Source of the DNA: Methanosarcinaceae archaeon
Lineage (GTDB): Archaea; Halobacteriota; Methanosarcinia; Methanosarcinales; Methanosarcinaceae
DNA: 38,704 nucleotides
Direction: 5' to 3'
Assembly (NCBI GenBank): GCA_030611265.1
Contig: JAUWQD010000024.1
Coordinates: 1-38,704, forward strand
The notes under the pieces were generated by a model. That model saw nothing but the letters and a program-made list of their open reading frames with translations, ran no database searches and was not told the origin of the DNA. Below are positions 15,375 to 38,698 of this stretch, piece after piece (the stretch's first letter is position 1; every line of letters starts with the position of its first letter). The translations under genes and the position numbers were made by a program.

Positions 15375-15531
15375 GGATCTCCCCAACATTGAGTGGGTAA
15401 ATATTCGACGGGATGAACAGGATTTTCAGGATGGGGCGGACCACTCATATCCTGTCAATCCTGTTCATCCTGTCTATTAATTCAGGAAATATGATATCCA
15501 TGTTTGAAAACATATCCGGAATAGTGATGTT
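15375..15531. repeat. Dispersed repeat R1, copy 1 (long inverted repeat)
   Basis: The core is a 21-bp inverted repeat. The left arm GATGAACAGGATTTTCAGGA(T) is at 15412-15432 and the complementary arm ends at 15469, separated by a GC-rich loop. Flanks GGATCTCCCCAACATT and AATAGTGATGT recur in copy 3 (38570-38698), and the core recurs in copy 2 (28396-28518). It is non-coding and intergenic. Confidence 0.85.
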
Positions 15532-18009: not shown

Positions 18010-19911
18010 ATGTCAAAACCTGTTTATCTTGGAGAAATGCTCCTGCACTGGTGCAAGTCCTGCAATGTTCCCGTACTTGGAAAGAAATGCGGATGCGGTG
18101 CGAAGACAAAGAAAGTTACTGTTACCCCGCCGGGCGACATTCGTCCGGCTTTTGAGCATGATATCGAACATATCAATTCCATTTCTATCAAACAATTCAA
18201 TGTTCCCCTCATTTCGCAAGACCATTTGGTCGTGCTCAACAAGGCTCCGTATGATGACAGGATGGACGAGATCATAGTTGACGGCGAGGTTGTTGCAAGT
18301 ATCAGGTTCGAGATCGACGGGCTGAGATGGGTACTTCTCACAAGGGCTGGCGGGGCACGCCGCATTTTTGGTGACAAGGATAAAACCAAGATGCGAAATT
18401 GGGTTGAGATCGATAATGATGCTATAAAATTCATAGTTAAAGGAGCAAACGTACTGGCTCCGGGGATTTCTGATGCCGATCCTGATATTCAGGAAGGCGA
18501 CGAGGTTGTTGTGCTGACTCCCGAGGGCGAGGCTGTGGCTGCCGGACGTGCACGGATGGATGGTGCGACAATGCTCAAACGCGAGCGAGGTATGGCTGTC
18601 AAGTGTCGATGGAGTGAGGCGGCTTGTGATGTCGAGGTTCCGGCAGGTGGGCAGACATGGGACGATGCGGTGACTGCAAATTCCGATATTCTGGATGGGT
18701 TTATTGAAAGGTCACACAAGTTCATCAAGAATGTCGCAGAGACTACCAACCGGCCTGTGACGGTTTCATATTCGGGCGGTAAGGACAGTCTTGCAACACT
18801 TCAACTTGTGAGTGAATGTATGGATGATTATGAATTGATGTTCGCAGATACCGGACTTGAATTCCCTGAAACGGTTGAGAATGTGGAGGTCGCTGCTAAA
18901 CGATACGGTCACCCTTTGCACACGATCAGTGTGGGAGATGCGTTCTGGGAATCTGTGGATGATTTTGGACCGCCGAGCGTTGAGGTTCGATGGTGCTGCA
19001 AGGTCTGCAAACTTGGTCCGATCACGCAACTTATTGAGGATAATTACGATAATGGATGCCTTACCTACATTGGCCAGCGCAAGTATGAATCCAGTGCCCG
19101 TGCAAAGAGTGAGCGGGTGTGGAAGAATCCATGGGTTGGGAATCAGGTCGGTGCTGCACCGATTCAGGACTGGACTGCTCTGCACGTTTGGTTGTACCTT
19201 TTCAGGACAGGGGCACCTTATAATCCGCTCTACGAGCAGGGTTTTGACAGGATAGGATGCTGGCTTTGCCCTTCTTCGTCACTTTCGGATATTGTGCGTC
19301 TCAAAGAGACTCATCCCGAAATGGAGAAGCGGCTCACTGACTACCTGTATGGATACGCAGAGCGCATGGGCTTGTCAAAAGAGTGGGTGGGACACGGATT
19401 CTGGCGCTGGCAGACACTGCCGTCGCACATTGCAACCATTGCGGAGAGGAAAGGCATCAATACCGTTCCGAAAAGTGAGGGAAAGGATGTGCTCATTTTC
19501 ACGATGACATCGGGATACCAACCATGTAAGGCTGGTGGCATGTCGGCAGAAGGTGGGTTCGGCACTGCGCTAGACCTTGTGCATCTTGAAGATTCACAAA
19601 TGCTACGCGCTGCTGGTGATGTGTCGTATATGGCTGGTGTGATATCTATTCTGAATGGCGAAGACCGCGCGCAGGTGTTTGCATCGGGGAATGTGACTGC
19701 ACGAAGCGATACGGAAAAGAGCGCACGCAGGTTGATGCACAGGGTTGAATTATCCATTCGGCGTGCTCTTAAGTGTCACGGGTGCGGGGTCTGCGTTGGA
19801 AACTGTCCGAATGATGTGATAGTTATTGAGGATGGGGTGGCTGTTATCGGGGACGGGTGTGTGCATTGTGGGAAATGTATTGAGGTCTGTCCGGTTGTGA
19901 AGTTTGGGTGA
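18010..19911 (+). CDS. PAPS-reductase-like PP-loop protein with zinc ribbon, PUA and ferredoxin domains
   Basis: This is a 633-residue cytoplasmic protein with four parts. Residues 15-29 form a zinc ribbon (C15, C18, C27, C29). Residues about 138-200 are a PUA domain ([10 protein letters not shown]). A PAPS-reductase/ATP-pyrophosphatase domain carries the PP-loop SGGKDS at 255-260 and [11 protein letters not shown], plus cysteines in RWCCKVCK and GCWLCP. Residues 586-633 hold two [4Fe-4S] sites (C589, C592, C595, C599 and C617, C620, C623, C627). This layout is known from methanogens. A PUA domain suggests RNA binding, so RNA sulfuration is as likely as sulfate or sulfonucleotide reduction. 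Degenerate copies of its 3' end recur at 20481, 23609 and 24576. Confidence 0.88.
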
Positions 19912-19996: not shown

Positions 19997-20308
19997 TTAC
20001 ACATACATGATATTCATAGCTTCATTCTCTCTTTGTTTTTGCTCTCTTATTATTTGCCACATCTTTTCTTGGTTCTTTCTTCGCATAACATTTCTTGGTT
20101 CATTGTCTAGATCATATTGTTTCCGCTTGCTTGGGTCTGATAATACTGAATAAGCCTCTGCGATTTCTTTAAACATTTCTTCAGCTTCCGGTAACTTGTT
20201 TTTGTCGGGATGATATAGCATAACCAGCCTGCGGTAAGCGGACTTAATATCATTTTGGGATGCTTTCTTATCAACTTCCAATATTTCGTAATATATTTTT
20301 TTAGCCAT
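19997..20308 (-). CDS. Short J-domain (DnaJ-like) protein
   Basis: This 103-residue protein is one J-domain plus a charged tail. [20 protein letters not shown] is followed by [12 protein letters not shown], with the HPD motif at residues 33-35, and then [14 protein letters not shown]. There is no Gly/Phe or zinc-finger region and no C-terminal substrate domain. It can stimulate Hsp70 ATPase but must get its specificity elsewhere. No dnaK is nearby. It is convergent with the PAPS-reductase-like gene and is the first of the genes inserted between copies of that gene's 3' end. Confidence 0.9.
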
Positions 20309-20480: not shown

Positions 20481-20513
20481 ATTGAGGTCTGTTCGGTTGT
20501 GAAGTTTGGGTAG
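20481..20513 (+). repeat. Degenerate copy A of the 3' end of the PAPS-reductase-like gene
   Basis: ATTGAGGTCTGTTCGGTTGT is followed by GAAGTTTGGGTAG, matching the gene's last 11 codons (19881-19913) with few changes. The sequence just after it, up to the palindrome at 20531, resembles that after copy C. Confidence 0.85.
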
Positions 20514-20530: not shown

Positions 20531-20572
20531 AAAAGTATACCAGATGGGATATATTCCATGTGGGATACTTTT
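20531..20572. repeat. 42-bp palindrome P, copy 1 (relic ATPase promoter/start)
   Basis: It begins AAAAGTATACCAGATGGGAT and ends CCATGTGGGATACTTTT; about 36 of 42 positions are self-complementary. Read on the plus strand it holds a TATA-like box and an ATG followed by WDTFQEYYF, which looks like the decayed start of another ATPase gene. Related copies are at 22178-22218 and 24730-24771. Confidence 0.7.
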
Positions 20573-20580
20573 CAAGAGTA

Positions 20581-22191
20581 TTATTTTAGAAGACTCTTTA
20601 TCTTTGGAATTTGCTTTTCTGTAACAAGAACGATATTTTCATTTTTTGCGTATTCGATTGCCTGTTTAGTGAATCCGCGTCTGCTTATAAAAATGAGTTT
20701 TTTGGATTTTTCTGAAAATTCCGATCTTGCTATTTTTGCCGAAAATTTTTCGAACTCCTTGTAATCAGTCTCTTTTGCGCGCCATTTGATCTCAAATATA
20801 TAAAAAATATCTTCTTTTTCACCTACAAGATCGAATTCGATTCCGTTTTCCAGATATTTATTAAAATGGATTCCAAGAGACTTTTCAAGAACATACTTTA
20901 ATTCGTATTCCTTCGCAATGCCCAGTTCAGTCGAGGCTTTTTCGAATTTTGCCTCAATATCGCGCACCATATCCTCTATGACTCTTTTTCCAGGCATGGA
21001 ATCGAACTCTACTCCTTCATATACATTCATGATCCAGTATCGGAAAACAGGGTCCCTGAAATAATAAAGATTGTTTTCTTTCACTATGAGGTCAATGTCA
21101 ACGAGGCGTTCGAGCATGTTTCTTGTGACCCCATTCTCGCGTTTGATGGAATGTGCAATTTCTGAAAGCCTGCGACCGTCTTCTTTTGCTAGTACCCGCA
21201 GTATTGTTTTCATAAGTGCATCTCCGCGTACTCTGGACATGCTGCTCTCAAAAAAGTACCTGCACATCAGGTTTATGCTTCCGTTTCGAAGCAATGTTTC
21301 AAGTGCAAATGCTTTCTTTACGCCGGCGGAATTTGTTTCACCGAGTTCGTTCATACGTTCGCAGATCGAATATATGTAAAATGGGTGTCCAAAAGACAAT
21401 TCATGGATTTTACCAAGCGCGATTTGGTTCTCGATTCCCGTTATCTTCTGTGCAAGTTCAATACTCGCCTTTTTCTCAAAACACGCTACTCTTTCAACCC
21501 TGAACTGTGCAAAAAGAGGGGAATCTGCCTCGCCGAATATTTTTTCAAGCATCCGTATGGCAGACCCTGCAACCACGTAATGCGTTTTTGATTGGGTTTG
21601 CAGAACAGAGCGGAACAATCCAATGGTGTCCCGTATTTGTGGAAAATTGTCAATGTCTTTTATTCGCTGGAATTCATCCAGCATAAGTATTATTTCAAAA
21701 TCTTGCTCTTTTGCAAGTTTTTCAGGAAAATCGAATGCCAATTCGAGCAATAACCTTTGGTTTGGTTTTGCTTTGTCAAGTTCATCAAACATCGTGTGTA
21801 CGGTGTCTCTCACAGCCGTACTTTCTACATCAGCGATAATTTTTATGAGGTTGTTAATATCGAGATAAGGCGCAATGTTCTCATCATTTCTTAACCAGCG
21901 CACGATCTGCCCTACATATTGAACAGCGAAAAATTCAGGTGTAGTGTCCAGACGTTCAAAATCCATATAGACTGCAAACACTTTGTCGCGATCAATCCTT
22001 GAAACGTATTCTTTCAGAATAAGACTTTTGCCAATTCTACGCAACCCTATAAAACATATATTTTTGCCAAAACCGTCTATTATCTGCTCGGTATTTCTTT
22101 CAAGCAAAGCAAGTTCAACTGTCCGGTCAGTAAAAAGTTTGCGCTCTTTTGTGGGATATATCGTTTCAACTGTTCTGGTAGTATTCCGCAT
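20581..22191 (-). CDS. Archaeal AAA (STAND-like) ATPase fused to a PD-(D/E)XK nuclease-like domain
   Basis: This 536-residue protein has the Walker A GLRRIGKS at 49-56, the Walker B IILMLDEFQ (D172, E173) and the sensor segment HYVVAGSA near 210. A winged-helix region follows at about 320-385 (LSEIAHSIKRENGVTRNMLE). The C-terminal 87 residues contain GIEFDLV and FEIKW (E452, D454, E467, K469), the layout of a PD-(D/E)XK nuclease. These archaeal ATPases are multicopy and lineage-variable; defence or mobile-element roles are suspected. A TATA box about 25 bases upstream implies a leaderless mRNA. A palindrome covers both promoter and start codon, suggesting self-repression. Confidence 0.88.
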   Translation of the reverse strand: MRNTTRTVETIYPTKERKLFTDRTVELALLERNTEQIIDGFGKNICFIGLRRIGKSLILKEYVSRIDRDKVFAVYMDFERLDTTPEFFAVQYVGQIVRWLRNDENIAPYLDINNLIKIIADVESTAVRDTVHTMFDELDKAKPNQRLLLELAFDFPEKLAKEQDFEIILMLDEFQRIKDIDNFPQIRDTIGLFRSVLQTQSKTHYVVAGSAIRMLEKIFGEADSPLFAQFRVERVACFEKKASIELAQKITGIENQIALGKIHELSFGHPFYIYSICERMNELGETNSAGVKKAFALETLLRNGSINLMCRYFFESSMSRVRGDALMKTILRVLAKEDGRRLSEIAHSIKRENGVTRNMLERLVDIDLIVKENNLYYFRDPVFRYWIMNVYEGVEFDSMPGKRVIEDMVRDIEAKFEKASTELGIAKEYELKYVLEKSLGIHFNKYLENGIEFDLVGEKEDIFYIFEIKWRAKETDYKEFEKFSAKIARSEFSEKSKKLIFISRRGFTKQAIEYAKNENIVLVTEKQIPKIKSLLK

Positions 22192-22218
22192 AGAATATAT
22201 CCTATGTGGTATACTTTT
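22178..22218. promoter_or_regulatory. Palindrome P, copy 2: promoter and start region of the first AAA ATPase
   Basis: AGTATTCCGCATAGAATATA is followed by TCCTATGTGGTATACTTTT, mostly self-complementary around its centre. On the minus strand the TATA-like TTAAAAGTATA lies about 25 bases before ATG 22191, and the other arm runs into codons 1-4. A bound protein would block both transcription and the start codon. Confidence 0.65.
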
Positions 22219-22344
22219 AAGTAATTTGCTGTTCGCAGTATCTGCATTTTATTTTTTATAAAGTTACCCTACTGTGGGATGCTCTAATTGCAATGTTGGG
22301 TGTATAGTTTGCATAATAACGTGGTAAAATTTAAAAGTACAATT

Positions 22345-23511
22345 TCACCCACTGATATTTCTCTTAAGCCAGATCCTGAAAACATTGTCGATTATTCTAT
22401 ATACTCCATCTTTTGACTTTTCAATTGTCATGGTATTTTGAAGATCACTCATTGATGACGTGAGAGATGATGCAGGTGTTTGCATATCTTTTGCGATATG
22501 ACTCAACCGTCTGAATTTTTCTTTGGATAAGTGTTTTAGTATATTTTTTTGCTGTTCGCTGAACTTGTCAATGTAGCGTGATTCAAATTCACTGTCAAAT
22601 TCAGCAAGCATAGCACAAAAACTTGCATCAACATCAGTACTCTCTATTTTTTCTTTATTTTCCAGTACTGCATCCTGGTAAACCATGAATCCAAGTTTTT
22701 GGAAATAAAATGGAAAGCCGCCCGTGACTGTACATATATTGTTCAGTGCCTGGTCGGATATTTGTATATTTTGTATTCCAAGACGTTGTCTTATGTACTT
22801 CCCAATATATTCTTCCTTTATTGGCTTAAGCTGCATTTTGGCAGCCATAAGATAGAGTGGTGAATCGGGTTTCAAAAACACATCATGTAAGAGTGATATT
22901 GATGAACCGGAAAAAATGTAACGAACATTTGGTTGGCTGTCCATTCGACTTTTTAGTACGTTAAATATGCTGCCATTGAATTTGCGTAGTTCTTGAAATT
23001 CATCAAAACAGAGTACGATCGGCACTTCTTTTTCTTTTGAAAAATGATCTATAAATTCGAATGTTTCTGCTATTAGATCCTGTTCATTTAGGTTATCGTC
23101 ACGAAATTTGAGATAGATGCCACCAACATGTTCAATGCTGCCGCCAATTTCAGAAAGTGAACCATATGCAGCCGTTATTTTTCCTTTAAATATCTGAGCA
23201 AATTTTTTGGATATTCCTTTTATTTTATGTTTTTCTTCATACGCCTCTAATAGCTGTTTGGTAGTTATCCTGAAAAAATCGCTTATGCTTACCATTCCCC
23301 TGCAGTTTATAAGTGTAAAAATAACATCATCCTTTACACTTAACTTGAGGTTTCGAAGAAGTGATGTTTTACCAATTCGGCGTGGCCCAATTATCACATT
23401 GTTTTGTGCTGATGTTAATATATCGAGTTTAATTTTTTCAATCTCTTCATCCCTGCCTATAAAGAAAGGAGGTTCTACTTCGCCACCAACCATGAAGATC
23501 TTTTGTATCAT
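22345..23511 (-). CDS. Archaeal AAA ATPase (AAA_14/ATPase_2 type) with C-terminal winged helix
   Basis: This 388-residue protein has the Walker A IGPRRIGKTS at residues 41-50, the Walker B VLCFDEFQ (D170, E171) and the sensor YIFSGSS near 205. A C-terminal winged-helix part (about 315-388) contains LSHIAKDMQTPASSLTSSM and ends RIWLKRNISG. It is related to the neighbouring ATPase (20581-22191) but lacks the nuclease-like tail. The two are separated by about 150 bp and read in the same direction, each with its own leaderless promoter. Its role is unknown; such ATPases are expanded in archaeal accessory regions. Confidence 0.88.
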   Translation of the reverse strand: MIQKIFMVGGEVEPPFFIGRDEEIEKIKLDILTSAQNNVIIGPRRIGKTSLLRNLKLSVKDDVIFTLINCRGMVSISDFFRITTKQLLEAYEEKHKIKGISKKFAQIFKGKITAAYGSLSEIGGSIEHVGGIYLKFRDDNLNEQDLIAETFEFIDHFSKEKEVPIVLCFDEFQELRKFNGSIFNVLKSRMDSQPNVRYIFSGSSISLLHDVFLKPDSPLYLMAAKMQLKPIKEEYIGKYIRQRLGIQNIQISDQALNNICTVTGGFPFYFQKLGFMVYQDAVLENKEKIESTDVDASFCAMLAEFDSEFESRYIDKFSEQQKNILKHLSKEKFRRLSHIAKDMQTPASSLTSSMSDLQNTMTIEKSKDGVYRIIDNVFRIWLKRNISG

Positions 23512-23543
23512 AGATTATAGTTGAAATCAACTATATTTAAAAT
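23512..23543 (-). promoter_or_regulatory. Promoter with a 20-bp palindrome before the second AAA ATPase
   Basis: TATAGTTGAAATCAACTATA (23516-23535) is a 9-bp inverted repeat around AA. On the minus strand it overlaps TTTAAATATAG (23541-23531), a TATA box centred about 26 bases before ATG 23511. This indicates a leaderless mRNA controlled by an operator between TATA and start. Confidence 0.65.
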
Positions 23544-23608
23544 TGACGACTAATTTAGTAGTTGAAACCCAATACACCCATATTTGACGATAAGACAAGC
23601 GACCGGAT

Positions 23609-23740
23609 GTTACCGGGGACGTGTGTGTTCATTGCGGGAAATGTATTGAGGCCTGTCCGGTTGTGATGTTCGGGTAGGGCGAAAGCTGTTTTTTGTTTGT
23701 GTATTGAACTAAAAACGATGCGGCCAACGCCGCAGGCGGC
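23609..23740 (+). repeat. Degenerate copy B of the 3' end and flank of the PAPS-reductase-like gene
   Basis: The part 23609-23677 matches the last 23 codons of the gene, including the final ferredoxin motif (TGTGTTCATTGCGGGAAATG). The part 23678-23740 still resembles the gene's downstream flank (GAACTAAAAACGATG against TTAACTAAAAACAATG). Homology therefore extends beyond the coding region. Confidence 0.85.
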
Positions 23741-23805
23741 ACATTCCGCCATTAACGAACAGATGAGCGCATACTATCGGTTGTTTATGTCTGTCTCATG
23801 CATGT

Positions 23806-23868
23806 AAACGGTTACATTTTGTAACCGTTTCACTGCCTCCAATTTTCAGCAGGTGACAATTTGTCACC
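23806..23868. other. Two consecutive perfect inverted repeats after hepT
   Basis: AAACGGTTAC and GTAACCGTTT around ATTTT (23806-23830), then GGTGACA and TGTCACC around ATT (23852-23868). They lie directly downstream of hepT on its transcript. No long T run follows on the minus strand, so they may be mRNA-end structures or protein-binding sites rather than ordinary terminators. Confidence 0.55.
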
Positions 23869-23871
23869 GAC

Positions 23872-24231
23872 TCATTCCCTTCTTTCTTCAATGTCTTCCA
23901 AGACCTTTTGAATAAATGGCTTTGTTTCAGGAATATCAACATTCACTGTTTGCCAAACAGTTTGCAGATTTACTCCAAAATAATCATGAATTAGGACATC
24001 TCGCATTCCTGCGATTTCTCTCCATGGAACATCCGGATATTTGTCCCGAACATCAGTCGGAACATGTTTTGCGGCTTCCCCTATAATTTCTATGGCTCTT
24101 ATGACTGCATAAGCAGTCTTTTTGTCACCGATAAAATCATCAAATGTCATTCCGTCAACAAAACTTTCGGCTTCATCCATAGCATCTATAATGTCTTCCA
24201 AAAAATCCAGATAATCCCTTTCTTCAGACAT
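23872..24231 (-). CDS. hepT: HepT-type HEPN ribonuclease toxin (DUF86)
   Basis: This 119-residue helical protein carries the RX4HXY signature in [11 protein letters not shown] (R77, H82, Y84), the HEPN RNase active site of HepT toxins. The start ATG 24231 ([10 protein letters not shown]) overlaps the end of mntA by eight bases (ATGTCTGA). The ten-codon upstream extension lies inside mntA and is rejected. In characterised MntA/HepT pairs the antitoxin attaches AMP groups to the tyrosine of the RX4HXY motif, and that tyrosine is present. The pair sits between copies B and C of the PAPS-reductase-like gene end. A second, nearly deleted pair is at 6723-6813. Confidence 0.92.
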
Positions 24232-24517
24232 AAACGACCTCTTTGAGTATCCGCTTGCCAATTCGAGGTCTTAATGCATCCTTCATTACAAGATCGACTT
24301 CAACTCCCAAAAGATCGGAAAGATAATTTTTTAGCCCCACAAACGATATGAGTCCAATGGGTTCATCGAACTCAACCAAAATATCAACATCGCTCGACTC
24401 GTTTTGTTGATCTCTGACATACGACCCAAATAATCCAATCTCTTGAACTTTGAATAACTTCTTCAACTCAGCTCTATGCTCAGTGAGTGTTTCCTTTATA
24501 CTTTCAGTTGTTTTCAT
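24224..24517 (-). CDS. mntA: MntA-type minimal nucleotidyltransferase antitoxin
   Basis: This 97-residue nucleotidyltransferase has the motif GSX10DXD as [16 protein letters not shown] (G31, S32, D43, D45). A third acidic position lies in EVDLVMKD. It transfers AMP from ATP to its partner HepT, neutralising it. ATG 24517 (MKTTESIKE) is chosen because a TATA-like TTAAGTATATTAAAG lies about 25-30 bases upstream. The 13-codon extension to 24556 would begin inside that promoter. It is co-transcribed with hepT through an eight-base overlap. Confidence 0.92.
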
Positions 24518-24575
24518 GTTCTTCAATTTATCTCTAATCTTTAATATACTTAACATATCCGCAAAAAATTCAGAC

Positions 24576-24713
24576 GTGATCTCTGTCCTGAATGGAGAAG
24601 ACCGCGCGCAGGTTGATGCACAGGGTTGAATTATCCATTCGGCGCGCCCTCAAGTGTCATGGGTGCGGGGTCTGTGTTGGGATAAGGTATCTCCGTTTGT
24701 GAAGTTTAGGTAG
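24576..24713 (+). repeat. Degenerate copy C of the 3' end of the PAPS-reductase-like gene, with internal deletions
   Basis: It corresponds to 19639-19913. One deletion joins the two CGCAGGT repeats of the gene, giving GCGCGCAGGTTGATGCACAG. A second deletion removes the middle of the ferredoxin domain. It ends GTTTGTGAAGTTTAGGTAG. Retained parts are about 90% identical by eye. Confidence 0.88.
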
Positions 24714-24729
24714 ATGCATTGCGGTGATA

Positions 24730-24771
24730 AAAAGTATCCAAGATGGGATATATCCTATGTGGAATGCTTTT
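24730..24771. repeat. 42-bp palindrome P, copy 3
   Basis: AAAAGTATCCAAGATGGGAT, then ATATCCTATGTGGAATGCTTTT. It follows copy C at the same distance as palindrome copy 1 follows copy A. The ATG is followed by WNAF and a stop, so no gene remains. Confidence 0.7.
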
Positions 24772-25089: not shown

Positions 25090-26492
25090 ATGGGTGAACC
25101 TGTAGATGATTTCGATAAAATATTTAAAAGTGTGTTTTCTCGAAGACCTGGAAATTATGATAATAGAAGGGGGGCGGAAAGACCACCAATATTAAATTCA
25201 GATGAAATTGAACAAATTTGCACATATCTTGAAAATCCAACAAAATCAGGAATTTGGTACTTAAATGGTAAATGGGGAAAAAATGAAGGCATTTCTAAAT
25301 ATATTCGAGATGAACTGAATCGAGAATTTGAAGATAAAGAGGATTTCCAAATTCAATCTGGTAAGAGAGAAATTAAGATTAATATAAAAGACGAAAATAG
25401 AGATAGTTTTTTTGATACTATCAATAGAATGACATTCATCTTGAGCTATTTACTTACTTGTACTATTTGGAAAATAAACCAATCGAAACTTTTTCCCTAC
25501 ATTATGATATAGATGAAACTATCATTAAAATTATTGATACAAAAAAATTGCAAGAAAAATACGAAGACGCTTATACCTATTTTAAGAATTCCATTTATTT
25601 TGATGGATTTAATCCAAGTATTATAGTTGAAGATATTATACGAATGAAAGATGGATTTTTCATCGTCACAAATTCATTGCGAAATTCGGATAATTTATCT
25701 ATTATGTCAATATATCCGTCTTGTTTGGAAAAAATCGAGATATTTTTTAAAAAGGTGGACAAAGTATCAGATTCCTCTATAACTCCAATTTTCTCTCCTG
25801 AAGAAAAAGTATTTGGTCCTTATTTTTCATTATTAGGTGAAACATATCCTTATTTTATTGACTATGAAAATATCAGAAGACTTTTTAAAAAATCGATCGA
25901 GGAGTATAGGAATAAGAATTATAATTATTGTGTTAGCACTATAGGTTTAATTGCAGAAGATTCCCTCACTCAAATCTATGAAACTTTTTATAGAGACATA
26001 TGTCCAAAAGGGCTAACTTTGGGGCAAATATATGATTTGATTCATAGCAAAATACGACAAACATTTAAAGTTAAATCCACACCTGTTCCAGATATAAATC
26101 CATTGTACGATAATATAAACAAATTAATTGATGATGATTGTAATGACAACATTGAAGTTACAAAATTATTCAGAGATTTATTGAATTATGTTAAAGATGA
26201 TAAAAAACATACAAAATCTATGATTAATTCTCTGGAAAAAAAAGAGATGATTTATTCAATTTTTCCTAAAAATTTAAGAGAAAACATCAACGAATTAATC
26301 CGATATAGAAATGCAACATCTCATAAATCCAGAATTCCAATTGGTAATTATGAAGCATTAAGAACAGTCTATTGTTGCATAACTCTTTTGATGTGGTGGA
26401 TTAATGAAAAGAAGACAATAGAGTGGAAAGATGAACAAGAAATTATATTAAAAAAATCAATCGAAAGGAATACTGGCATCAATTTAGATTAA
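25090..26492 (+). pseudogene. Large HEPN-type protein (Abi-like), split by a frameshift
   Basis: Two overlapping frames, 25090-25512 and 25428-26492, make one protein of about 460 residues if a single base is restored near 25455 (LSYLL... continuing as LYYLENKPIETFSLHYD). AGGAGG eight bases before ATG 25090 is a strong ribosome site, so the N-terminal part is translated. The C-terminal part has a helical HEPN-like region with IRYRNATSHKSR, an RX4H motif (R284, H289 of the second frame), as in HEPN RNases of abortive-infection systems. The N-terminal 110 residues (ILNSDEIEQICTYLENPTKS region) are not recognised. No canonical slippery heptamer is seen in the overlap, so mutation or sequencing error is likelier than programmed frameshifting. 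Confidence 0.65.
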
Positions 26493-26770: not shown

Positions 26771-26780
26771 GGTGATTTTT

Positions 26781-28397
26781 ATGGTTAAAAGGGCACTCCT
26801 CAGCGTATCGGACAAAACAGGAATAGTGGATTTAGCGCGTGGACTCGCGAAACTTGGAATAGAGATCATATCGACAGGCGGAACGGCAAAGATAATTCGT
26901 GATGCCGATATTGAAGTTGTTGATGTTTCAGAAGTAACCGGTTTTCCCGAAATGATGGGCGGAAGGGTCAAGACCTTGCACCCAAGGATACACGGCGGAT
27001 TGTTGTGTGTTCGTGACAACAGCGTTCATATTGAAGAAGCCGAGCGGGAGAGTATCGAACTTATCGATATGGTGGTCGTTAACCTGTATCCATTCGAGAT
27101 CACAGTTTCAAAAGTAGGGGTTGACCTTGAAGAAGCCATCGAGAACATCGATATTGGCGGACCAACTCTCATCCGTGCGGCTGCAAAGAACTATACTGCG
27201 GTTACTGTGCTTTGCGACCCTAACGACTACGGTCATATTTTAAAGGAACTGCGGTCAAGCGGAGTTGTTTCAAAGGAGACTCGCGAAGAGTTGGCTGTCA
27301 AAGCATTCAGACATACGGCTGATTATGACAGTACGATCGACACATACCTTAGCAAAGCACTGCTGGGCGAGGATATCATGCGGTTGAACTTTACCGAAGG
27401 CACAACACTTCGCTACGGTGAGAACTGGCATCAGGATGCCAAATTCTACACCGAACCTGGCGTAGAGGGACCATCACTTGCAAACGCAAAACAGTTGCAT
27501 GGCAAAGAACTTTCATATAACAACTATGTTGACGCAGACAATGCGCTCCAGACCGTCAAGGAACTTGGACACGAAAAACCTGCCGTCGCAATCGTAAAAC
27601 ACAACAACCCCTGCGGACTCGCAACCGGAAACACGCTTAAAAGTGCACTTGTGGCAGCATGGGACGGAGACCCCGTATCTGCTTTTGGCAGCATCATCTG
27701 CACGAATACAACCTTTGATCTTGAAACTGCAGAGTTCCTAAAAGGCAGGTTCGTTGAAATTATAATTGCACCCGGATTTGAGCATGATGCGCTCGAATAC
27801 CTTAAAAACAAGAGCAAAGACCTCAGACTTCTGGAACTCCCTGAATTCAACGACGCTTTTGGCGTGGATCACACTTACAAATATGTGGTCGGTGGGATGC
27901 TCAAACAGTCACGCAATGTTGGCATCTATGAAAAATGGGACATTGTTACGGAAACAACATTCCCCGAAGAAAAACGCCAACTGGCAGAGTTCTGCCTATA
28001 TGCGTGCAAGAGCACCAAATCCAATTCCGTTACACTTGCGTATGAATATGAGGACGGATGCTTCATGCTGCTCGCAATGGGTGCAGGACAGCCGAACCGT
28101 GTGGATTCTATCCGCAAACTCGCAGTCACAAAAGCGCGCGAGAATCTGAAAATAATCCACGAGCGCGAGGGGTCGGACGTACCGTTCGATGAATATTGCG
28201 ACAAGGTGTTCTCTGAATGTGTGATGGCATCCGATGCGTTCTTCCCGTTCGATGACAGTATTATTTACGCAGATGAGAGCAACATCAGGTATATCGTGTC
28301 TCCAGGCGGTTCCATCAGGGATAATGAGGTAATCGCGACAGCGAACAGGCTTGGTGTGTCACTTGTATTTACGGGTATGAGGCACTTTTTACATTAG
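26781..28397 (+). CDS. purH: Bifunctional AICAR transformylase/IMP cyclohydrolase PurH
   Basis: This 538-residue cytoplasmic enzyme performs the last two steps of purine synthesis: formylation of AICAR, then ring closure to IMP. The N-terminal IMPCH domain (1-200) is an MGS-like fold with the SVSDKTG start, STGGTAK and FPEMMGGRVKTLHPRIHGG. The C-terminal AICARFT domain carries the catalytic KHNNPCG and ends with DAFFPFDD, SPGGSIRD and FTGMRHFLH. It is full length with all key motifs. GGTGA five bases before ATG 26781 fixes the start over the in-frame codon at 26772. Many archaea use PurP and PurO instead, so this bacterial-type fused enzyme is probably an old transfer. The C1 donor in a tetrahydromethanopterin-using cell is an open question. 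Confidence 0.95.
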   Translation: MVKRALLSVSDKTGIVDLARGLAKLGIEIISTGGTAKIIRDADIEVVDVSEVTGFPEMMGGRVKTLHPRIHGGLLCVRDNSVHIEEAERESIELIDMVVVNLYPFEITVSKVGVDLEEAIENIDIGGPTLIRAAAKNYTAVTVLCDPNDYGHILKELRSSGVVSKETREELAVKAFRHTADYDSTIDTYLSKALLGEDIMRLNFTEGTTLRYGENWHQDAKFYTEPGVEGPSLANAKQLHGKELSYNNYVDADNALQTVKELGHEKPAVAIVKHNNPCGLATGNTLKSALVAAWDGDPVSAFGSIICTNTTFDLETAEFLKGRFVEIIIAPGFEHDALEYLKNKSKDLRLLELPEFNDAFGVDHTYKYVVGGMLKQSRNVGIYEKWDIVTETTFPEEKRQLAEFCLYACKSTKSNSVTLAYEYEDGCFMLLAMGAGQPNRVDSIRKLAVTKARENLKIIHEREGSDVPFDEYCDKVFSECVMASDAFFPFDDSIIYADESNIRYIVSPGGSIRDNEVIATANRLGVSLVFTGMRHFLH

Positions 28398-28518
28398 TGG
28401 GATATATTGGACAAATATTCGACGGGATGAACAGGATTTACAGGATGGTGCGGACCACTTGTATCCTGTCAATCCTGTTCATCCTGTCCATAAATTAAAG
28501 CAATGCATTTGGATATAT
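28396..28518. repeat. Dispersed repeat R1, copy 2
   Basis: GATGAACAGGATTTACAGGA(T) and its complement (ending near 28490) form a 21-bp inverted repeat with 20 matches. The flank AAATATTCGACGGG is shared with copy 1. It fills the space between purH and the HicB-like gene, and its right flank (AAAGCAATGCATTTGGATAT) resembles copy 3. Confidence 0.85.
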
Positions 28519-38569: not shown

Positions 38570-38698
38570 GGATCTCCCCAACATTAAGTGGGTAAATATT
38601 AGACGGGATAAACAGGATGGGGCGAGCCACTTGTATCCTGTCTATAGATTCAAGCAATGTGATTGCATATCCGGCGATATATCCTGGATAGTGATGTG
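38570..38698. repeat. Dispersed repeat R1, copy 3 (shortened core)
   Basis: GGATCTCCCCAACATTAAGT, GGGTAAATATTAGACGGG and the end ATAGTGATGTG match copy 1. The inverted repeat core is reduced to GATAAACAGGAT / ATCCTGTCTAT by an internal deletion. Confidence 0.82.

Follow-up and report, generated by a model that had tools for sequence, protein, structure and literature searches.

Operators at which a gene product controls its own promoter are familiar from type II toxin-antitoxin systems (PMC4803016, PMC7167474). Here we analysed a 38,704-nucleotide stretch of a Methanosarcinaceae archaeon genome (contig JAUWQD010000024.1, positions 1 to 38,704, hereafter the window) which holds three copies of a 42-bp palindrome, P, one of them lying over the start of an ATPase-nuclease gene that we call ATPase1. 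Proteins of the ATPase_2/DUF234 type, to which ATPase1 is related, are numerous in archaea and to our knowledge have no clear role. Those of the archaeal STAND type (PF01637; PDB 2fna and 2qen) resemble ATPase1 in having a P-loop ATPase followed by a winged helix, often with a DUF234 or nuclease C-terminus.

Palindrome P and the ATPase1 gene

The three copies differ in symmetry and in setting. P1 (20531..20572, no strand assigned) is self-complementary at 36/42 positions and lies 8 bp beyond the ATPase1 stop codon, after a copy of the end of a PAPS reductase gene and a spacer. P2 (22177..22218, minus strand; 30/42, z 6.4) covers both a TATA-like box, AAAAGTATA, and the ATG of the ATPase1 open reading frame (20581-22191, minus strand), and is a putative operator and core promoter. 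P3 (24730..24771, no strand assigned; 32/42) also follows a gene-end copy and spacer, and is solo, with no ATPase next to it. An earlier, sequence-only reading had located all three sites and had placed the middle one over the TATA box and first codons of the ATPase-nuclease gene; both points held, apart from a start given one base too high, at 22178. That reading further proposed that P follows the gene-end copies with a common spacer as a repeated unit, and we found that gene end, spacer and P together form a 95-bp repeat that is 79% identical between P1 and P3 (20478-20572 and 24679-24771). It is not the case that P belongs intrinsically to the gene-end repeat, as gene ends in the genomes G106 and G108 bear cassettes without P. 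Bracketing of the gene by copies of P, which that reading had raised as a point to check, was likewise supported by P1 and P2, which flank ATPase1 as mutually inverted near-copies (34/39, or 87% over 39 bp). Over columns 4-45 of alignment A3, the G111 orthologue has the same sequence as P2.

The three-copy palindrome is real and beyond chance. In the window the paired arms match at 18/21 positions in P1, 16/21 in P3 and 15/21 in P2, and the other copies match P1 at 36/42 and 31/42 (34/42 when inverted). Among 60 first-order Markov windows used as the chance control, no 42-nt palindrome exceeded 16/21 arm matches, 15/21 was attained by 0.6 sites per window, and the closest match to P1 was 27/42. 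It had also been noted that in P1 and P3 an ATG is followed by a few codons and then by no gene. No gene does follow, and the codons (TGG xAT ACT TTT) are given by the palindrome itself, because they mirror its TATA-like left arm; past the palindrome, P1 and P3 show no likeness to the ATPase N-terminus. These codons alone are no proof of a lost gene, although real stubs with extra matching codons are found at other ATPase loci.

ATPase1 is predicted to be a 536-aa protein combining an ATPase_2/AAA_14 domain, a winged helix-turn-helix (wHTH) and an Mrr-like PD-(D/E)XK nuclease. The ATPase_2 match (1.7e-6, 28.4 bits) lies under its cut-off of 33.2, and the AAA_14 match over its own; the Walker A and B motifs read GLRRIGKS and MLDEFQ. 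The winged-helix region (21082..21216, minus strand; about residues 326-370) has profile matches to PDB 2fna (2e-16) and to the MarR protein 4xrf (0.005), both in support of a wHTH and the former also of the ATPase_2 assignment, and homologues give weak HTH_45, MarR and TrmB matches. In the nuclease region (Mrr_cat, 20608..20832, minus strand; residues 454-528) an EFD...EIK motif is retained, with variations, in those homologues that extend this far. Mrr_cat takes the place of DUF234, which is not found in ATPase1 and is present in L042, L050 and L054. Searches of PADLOC and NCBIfam gave no match for ATPase1, and a single-sequence AlphaFold model (predicted local distance difference test, pLDDT, 45) was not used.

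P is restricted to this locus. With up to three mismatches the pattern found only P1 and P3 in its own genome, and a looser pattern found all three copies; the genome-wide check proposed in the earlier reading has a plain outcome, P being confined to this locus. An indel-tolerant covariance model detected P in 3/112 genomes of the family, from three species of the same genus, with three copies in G000, three in G111 and a single degenerate one in G107. The copies in G111 are on the same contig as L003, where the spacing of P1 and P2 is 1646 bp, equal to that in the window; the degenerate copy in G107 lies ~25 bp after the native PAPS-reductase stop. Nearly all other genera examined have the PAPS reductase gene followed by purH, with a gap of roughly 50-150 bp and no P between them, and the native gene ends of G106, G108 and G111 also lack it. 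Because other genera have this arrangement without P, comparison of the sequences indicates that the island of gene cassettes between PAPS reductase and purH is specific to the genus and that P arrived with it. A viral reservoir was considered and rejected: viral contigs did not contain P, and 0/59 pattern matches in them encoded a relative.

Gene-specific palindromes and travelling units

The association of a palindrome with the start codon extends to other ATPase_2 genes. Palindromes were scored from -60 to +30 of the ATG, those with z>3 being taken as strong. In the own genome, which has 46 ATPase_2/DUF234 matches, the mean z was 3.25 for 23 ATPase_2 genes and 0.20 for 248 control genes (p=8e-9), with z>3 in 61% of the former and 5% of the latter; across the phylum the score was 7.78 for 57 genes against 5.13 for 200 controls (p=3e-14). 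Genes with a P-loop motif were excluded from the controls, since some high-scoring controls were themselves such ATPases. A first test from the 5'-most start codon gave a weaker result (p=1.5e-6) and was replaced by the ATG-based version with a milder mismatch penalty; the start codon and scoring were chosen after the sequences had been seen, but the phylum set was scored later with identical scoring.

Close to the ATG, each ATPase_2 gene or set of close homologues carries an inverted (or 15-bp direct) repeat of its own, examples being TTTCCACACGATTATAATAATCATGTGGAAA, GTTGCAACACGATTAGTATAATCATGTTGCAAC and CTAATCTACATTAGTACTAATCATGGTTAG. When 20 of these palindromes were compared with 674 kb of the own genome, each was found only at its cognate or close-homologue ATPase and as nearby extra copies at six loci; for the shortest palindromes, the 72-75% threshold gave a few further matches, no more than chance would produce. 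The extra copies lie within about 3 kb of their ATPase, and 6/79 genes, as against 1/623 non-cognate scans, have a strong second site at a distance above 300 bp. Downstream copies occur 16 bp after the stop codon at C79, 93 bp after it at C46 and about 340 bp after it at L253. C46 mirrors the layout of P, having three sites of which the downstream copy is the second; the second and third share a common spacer and enclose a RelBE-like pair, and homology to relatives picks up again 6 bp past the third.

At L253, from another family of the phylum, the second copy of the palindrome and its ATG are followed by MIRYFIDRE and a stop, which may be compared with MIRDFIDREK in the living gene. L245 and L054 hold shorter stubs of the same kind, so that at these three loci a palindrome, an ATG and 4-10 gene-like codons are followed by no gene. 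In G111:C70 a palindrome and start are joined to an ATPase 3' end, and G106:C190 has a solo site, the orthologue of one in G000, at the position that the entire gene occupies in G110. Near-identical ATPase units lie at unrelated sites in the pairs L242/L247, L240/L241 and L221/L228, which is not so for P itself. The common sequence runs from start-22 to stop+17 in L242/L247, both from one complete genome, and from -30 to 0 or -93 to +7 in others; longer common flanks in L246/L251 and L230/L237 are as expected for inherited positions. Because the sequence common to near-identical ATPases from different contexts is often limited to the stretch from palindrome to stop, the alignments indicate that the ATPase gene travels with its palindrome.

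Several of these loci have further features. The RelBE-like toxin-antitoxin pair of L153 (C46:18474-18973), identified by eye, adjoins the ATPase_2 gene, and a ~240-bp sequence upstream of that gene (L153, C46:20740-20980) has dozens of diverged, mostly partial copies in genomes of the genus. At G000:C79 (L154) a gene fragment to the left of the ATPase_2 unit (1-211) is duplicated on its right (about 1868-2080), a signature of a duplicated gene piece. At G000:C8 (L155; also L140 and L257) a ~130-bp direct repeat ending in the ATPase palindrome (80691, 81755) flanks a 1-kb insert in G000; the insert is missing from G110 and G111, which have the ATPase, and G106 has a solo palindrome with no ATPase seen on its contig.

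Proposed self-regulation and its alternatives

We consider it probable that P is the cognate operator through which the ATPase-nuclease at 20581-22191 regulates its own expression, and that P1 and P3 represent additional or remnant copies of the site within an insertion hotspot. The position of P, its gene specificity, its transfer together with the gene and its confinement to the locus are direct observations, and self-regulation is favoured by the pattern across the class. Binding, repression, dimer symmetry and the mechanism of mobility are the predicted parts of the model. An ATPase dimer would bind the palindrome through its winged helices and block TBP/TFB or RNA polymerase at a leaderless promoter, and the gene would thereby repress itself in the manner of toxin-antitoxin modules. 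The hotspot between PAPS reductase and purH would have undergone insertion, duplication and loss of the ATPase unit and of further single-gene cassettes, and P1, P3 and the degenerate P of G107 would be operator copies added or left by those events; P1, next to the stop codon, may still bind ATPase1. By analogy with the stubs at other ATPase loci, the preferred view of P1 and P3 is that they are additional sites or remnants. The start-site palindromes of many relatives, in some cases remaining only as stubs, suggest a large set of self-regulated, roaming single-gene units.

Several observations weigh against this interpretation. P1 and P3 are more symmetric than P2 although they lie outside the gene, which autoregulation does not explain, and since neither has ATPase codons past the palindrome, their reading as left-overs depends on other loci. 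About a third of ATPase_2 genes have no clear palindrome, its place being taken in some of them by 15-bp direct repeats. Many genes of the haloarchaeal type have weak palindromes. Promoter conservation between homologues, in itself a point in favour, is only modestly above that of ordinary genes of equal protein identity (19.5 against 16.9 and 16.7 of 22 for pairs 70-80% identical in protein). Promoter similarity follows whole-protein identity, but co-evolution of the operator specifically with the wHTH was sought and not found, the partial correlation being about 0 as compared with 0.33 for the nuclease part. The arms of P show no covariation in excess of shuffles among seven sequences.

The main rival makes P the site that a mobile ATPase unit recognises and lands on: the nuclease would cut or bind P, and the unit of P plus gene would insert beside or between copies of P, leaving P at both ends (P1, P2) or a solo P after loss (P3). 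The inverted near-copies around ATPase1, the downstream copies at C79, C46 and L253, the resumption of homology just beyond the third site at C46 and the EFD...EIK motif of the nuclease are all consistent with it. The sequence-only reading had similarly offered, as one of two options, that a mobile ATPase element has P as its recognition end, and the part of that proposal which stands is that near-identical ATPases elsewhere often share only palindrome-to-stop. However, P is not dispersed in the genome, most ATPase_2 loci have a single site so that bracketing is found at a minority, and inspection by eye of P1/P2 and of selected unit junctions gave no sign of target-site duplication. In addition, we know of no transposase-like residues in the ATPase_2 family. 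We regard a landing site as possible, if rather unlikely. Unlikely, too, is a broader conjecture in which ATPase_2 genes would form a large family of minimal selfish units, a single protein of ATPase, winged helix and nuclease recognising its own palindrome both for self-repression and for targeting or resolving adjacent insertion, with P1, P3 and L253 as scars or decoys.

Another reading, in which P is a bidirectional terminator hairpin for transcription that follows the PAPS reductase gene end and came to be overlapped by an ATPase promoter, seems improbable. The RNA hairpins of P1 (-23.1 kcal/mol, z -6.7) and P3 (-16.9 kcal/mol, z -5.1) are strong and have T runs, and the degenerate P of G107 follows a native gene end. 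However, the lack of P after PAPS reductase in nearly all other genera, and at the native ends of the three relatives, speaks against a terminator, which would also leave unexplained both the location of P over the ATPase start and the class of gene-specific start-site palindromes; furthermore, archaeal termination relies more on U tracts than on hairpins. A small dispersed palindromic repeat resembling a repetitive extragenic palindrome (REP) or miniature inverted-repeat transposable element (MITE), landed by chance at the ATPase start, would account for three palindromic copies of similar length, but this very improbable reading was rejected by the genome and family searches, as the covariance model detected P at no other locus, either in this genome or in 111 further ones of the family, and every ATPase has its own palindrome.

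The cassette island and comparison with known systems

The island lies between the PAPS reductase/PUA/4Fe-4S gene (18010..19911, plus strand), the 3' end of which is the repeated sequence, and its right flank, purH (26772..28397, plus strand), which in other genera directly adjoins PAPS reductase. It contains a DnaJ-domain gene (19997..20308, minus strand), ATPase1, a second and more distant ATPase_2 gene (22345..23511, minus strand), a HepT/MNT nucleotidyltransferase pair of toxin-antitoxin type (23872..24556, minus strand) and one further gene without assignment. The second ATPase_2 gene, a separate cassette in G106 (L031), has its own palindrome, TATAGTTGATTTCAACTATA (23516..23535, minus strand; z 3.2), immediately upstream of its ATG. 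Between P3 and purH, at 25090-26492, are two overlapping open reading frames (140 and 344 aa) without a Pfam match, possibly one frameshifted gene.

Between the single-gene cassettes stand copies of the PAPS-reductase/ferredoxin gene's 3' end (19639-19911, 20481-20511, 23605-23675 and 24576-24711; L003, L031, L032 and L040). Those within the island are on the plus strand: the first precedes P1, the next lies between the second ATPase and HepT/MNT, and the last, internally deleted, precedes P3. The order and content of cassettes vary among species of the genus, which marks the interval between PAPS reductase and purH as an insertion hotspot; G106 has the second ATPase, G108 an MNT cassette and then a DnaJ remnant, and G111 has ATPase1, RhuM, MNT and DnaJ. 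A dispersed repeat with inverted arms (GGATGAACAGGAT...ATCCTGTTCATCC) at 15375-15490, 28389-28504 and 38570-38645 is apparently unrelated to P.

The palindrome, the stubs and the movement of gene with palindrome offer a first handle on the ATPase_2/DUF234 proteins, as for each ATPase they predict a DNA ligand open to direct test, and the pattern suggests self-regulated mobile genes of a toxin-antitoxin-like or defence-like kind. Among systems already described, integron cassettes with attC sites are alike in that single-gene cassettes stand in arrays, some of them separated by imperfect palindromes. In the island, by contrast, the palindromes stand at gene starts and the cassette joints are copies of a host gene end; no integron integrase was seen, and no search for one was made. 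Insertion sequences and compact single-gene transposable units also occur as near-identical copies in unrelated contexts, as do the units described above, whose ends lie close to the palindrome and the stop codon, but here there is no visible target-site duplication or known transposase, and P is limited to one locus.

Type II toxin-antitoxin operators share a gene-specific palindrome over the core promoter, occurrence in small, mobile, defence-like units and self-repression, the last being what we propose here. They differ in that our candidate regulator is a single ATPase-wHTH-nuclease protein with no separate antitoxin, that the site reaches from TATA box to start codon in many genes, and that extra solo copies lie outside the gene. 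Autoregulatory palindromes are known in kind. Within the titles and abstracts of the open-access literature searched, we found no description of gene-specific palindromes at the promoters and starts of the large archaeal ATPase_2/DUF234 family, with stubs and co-transfer.

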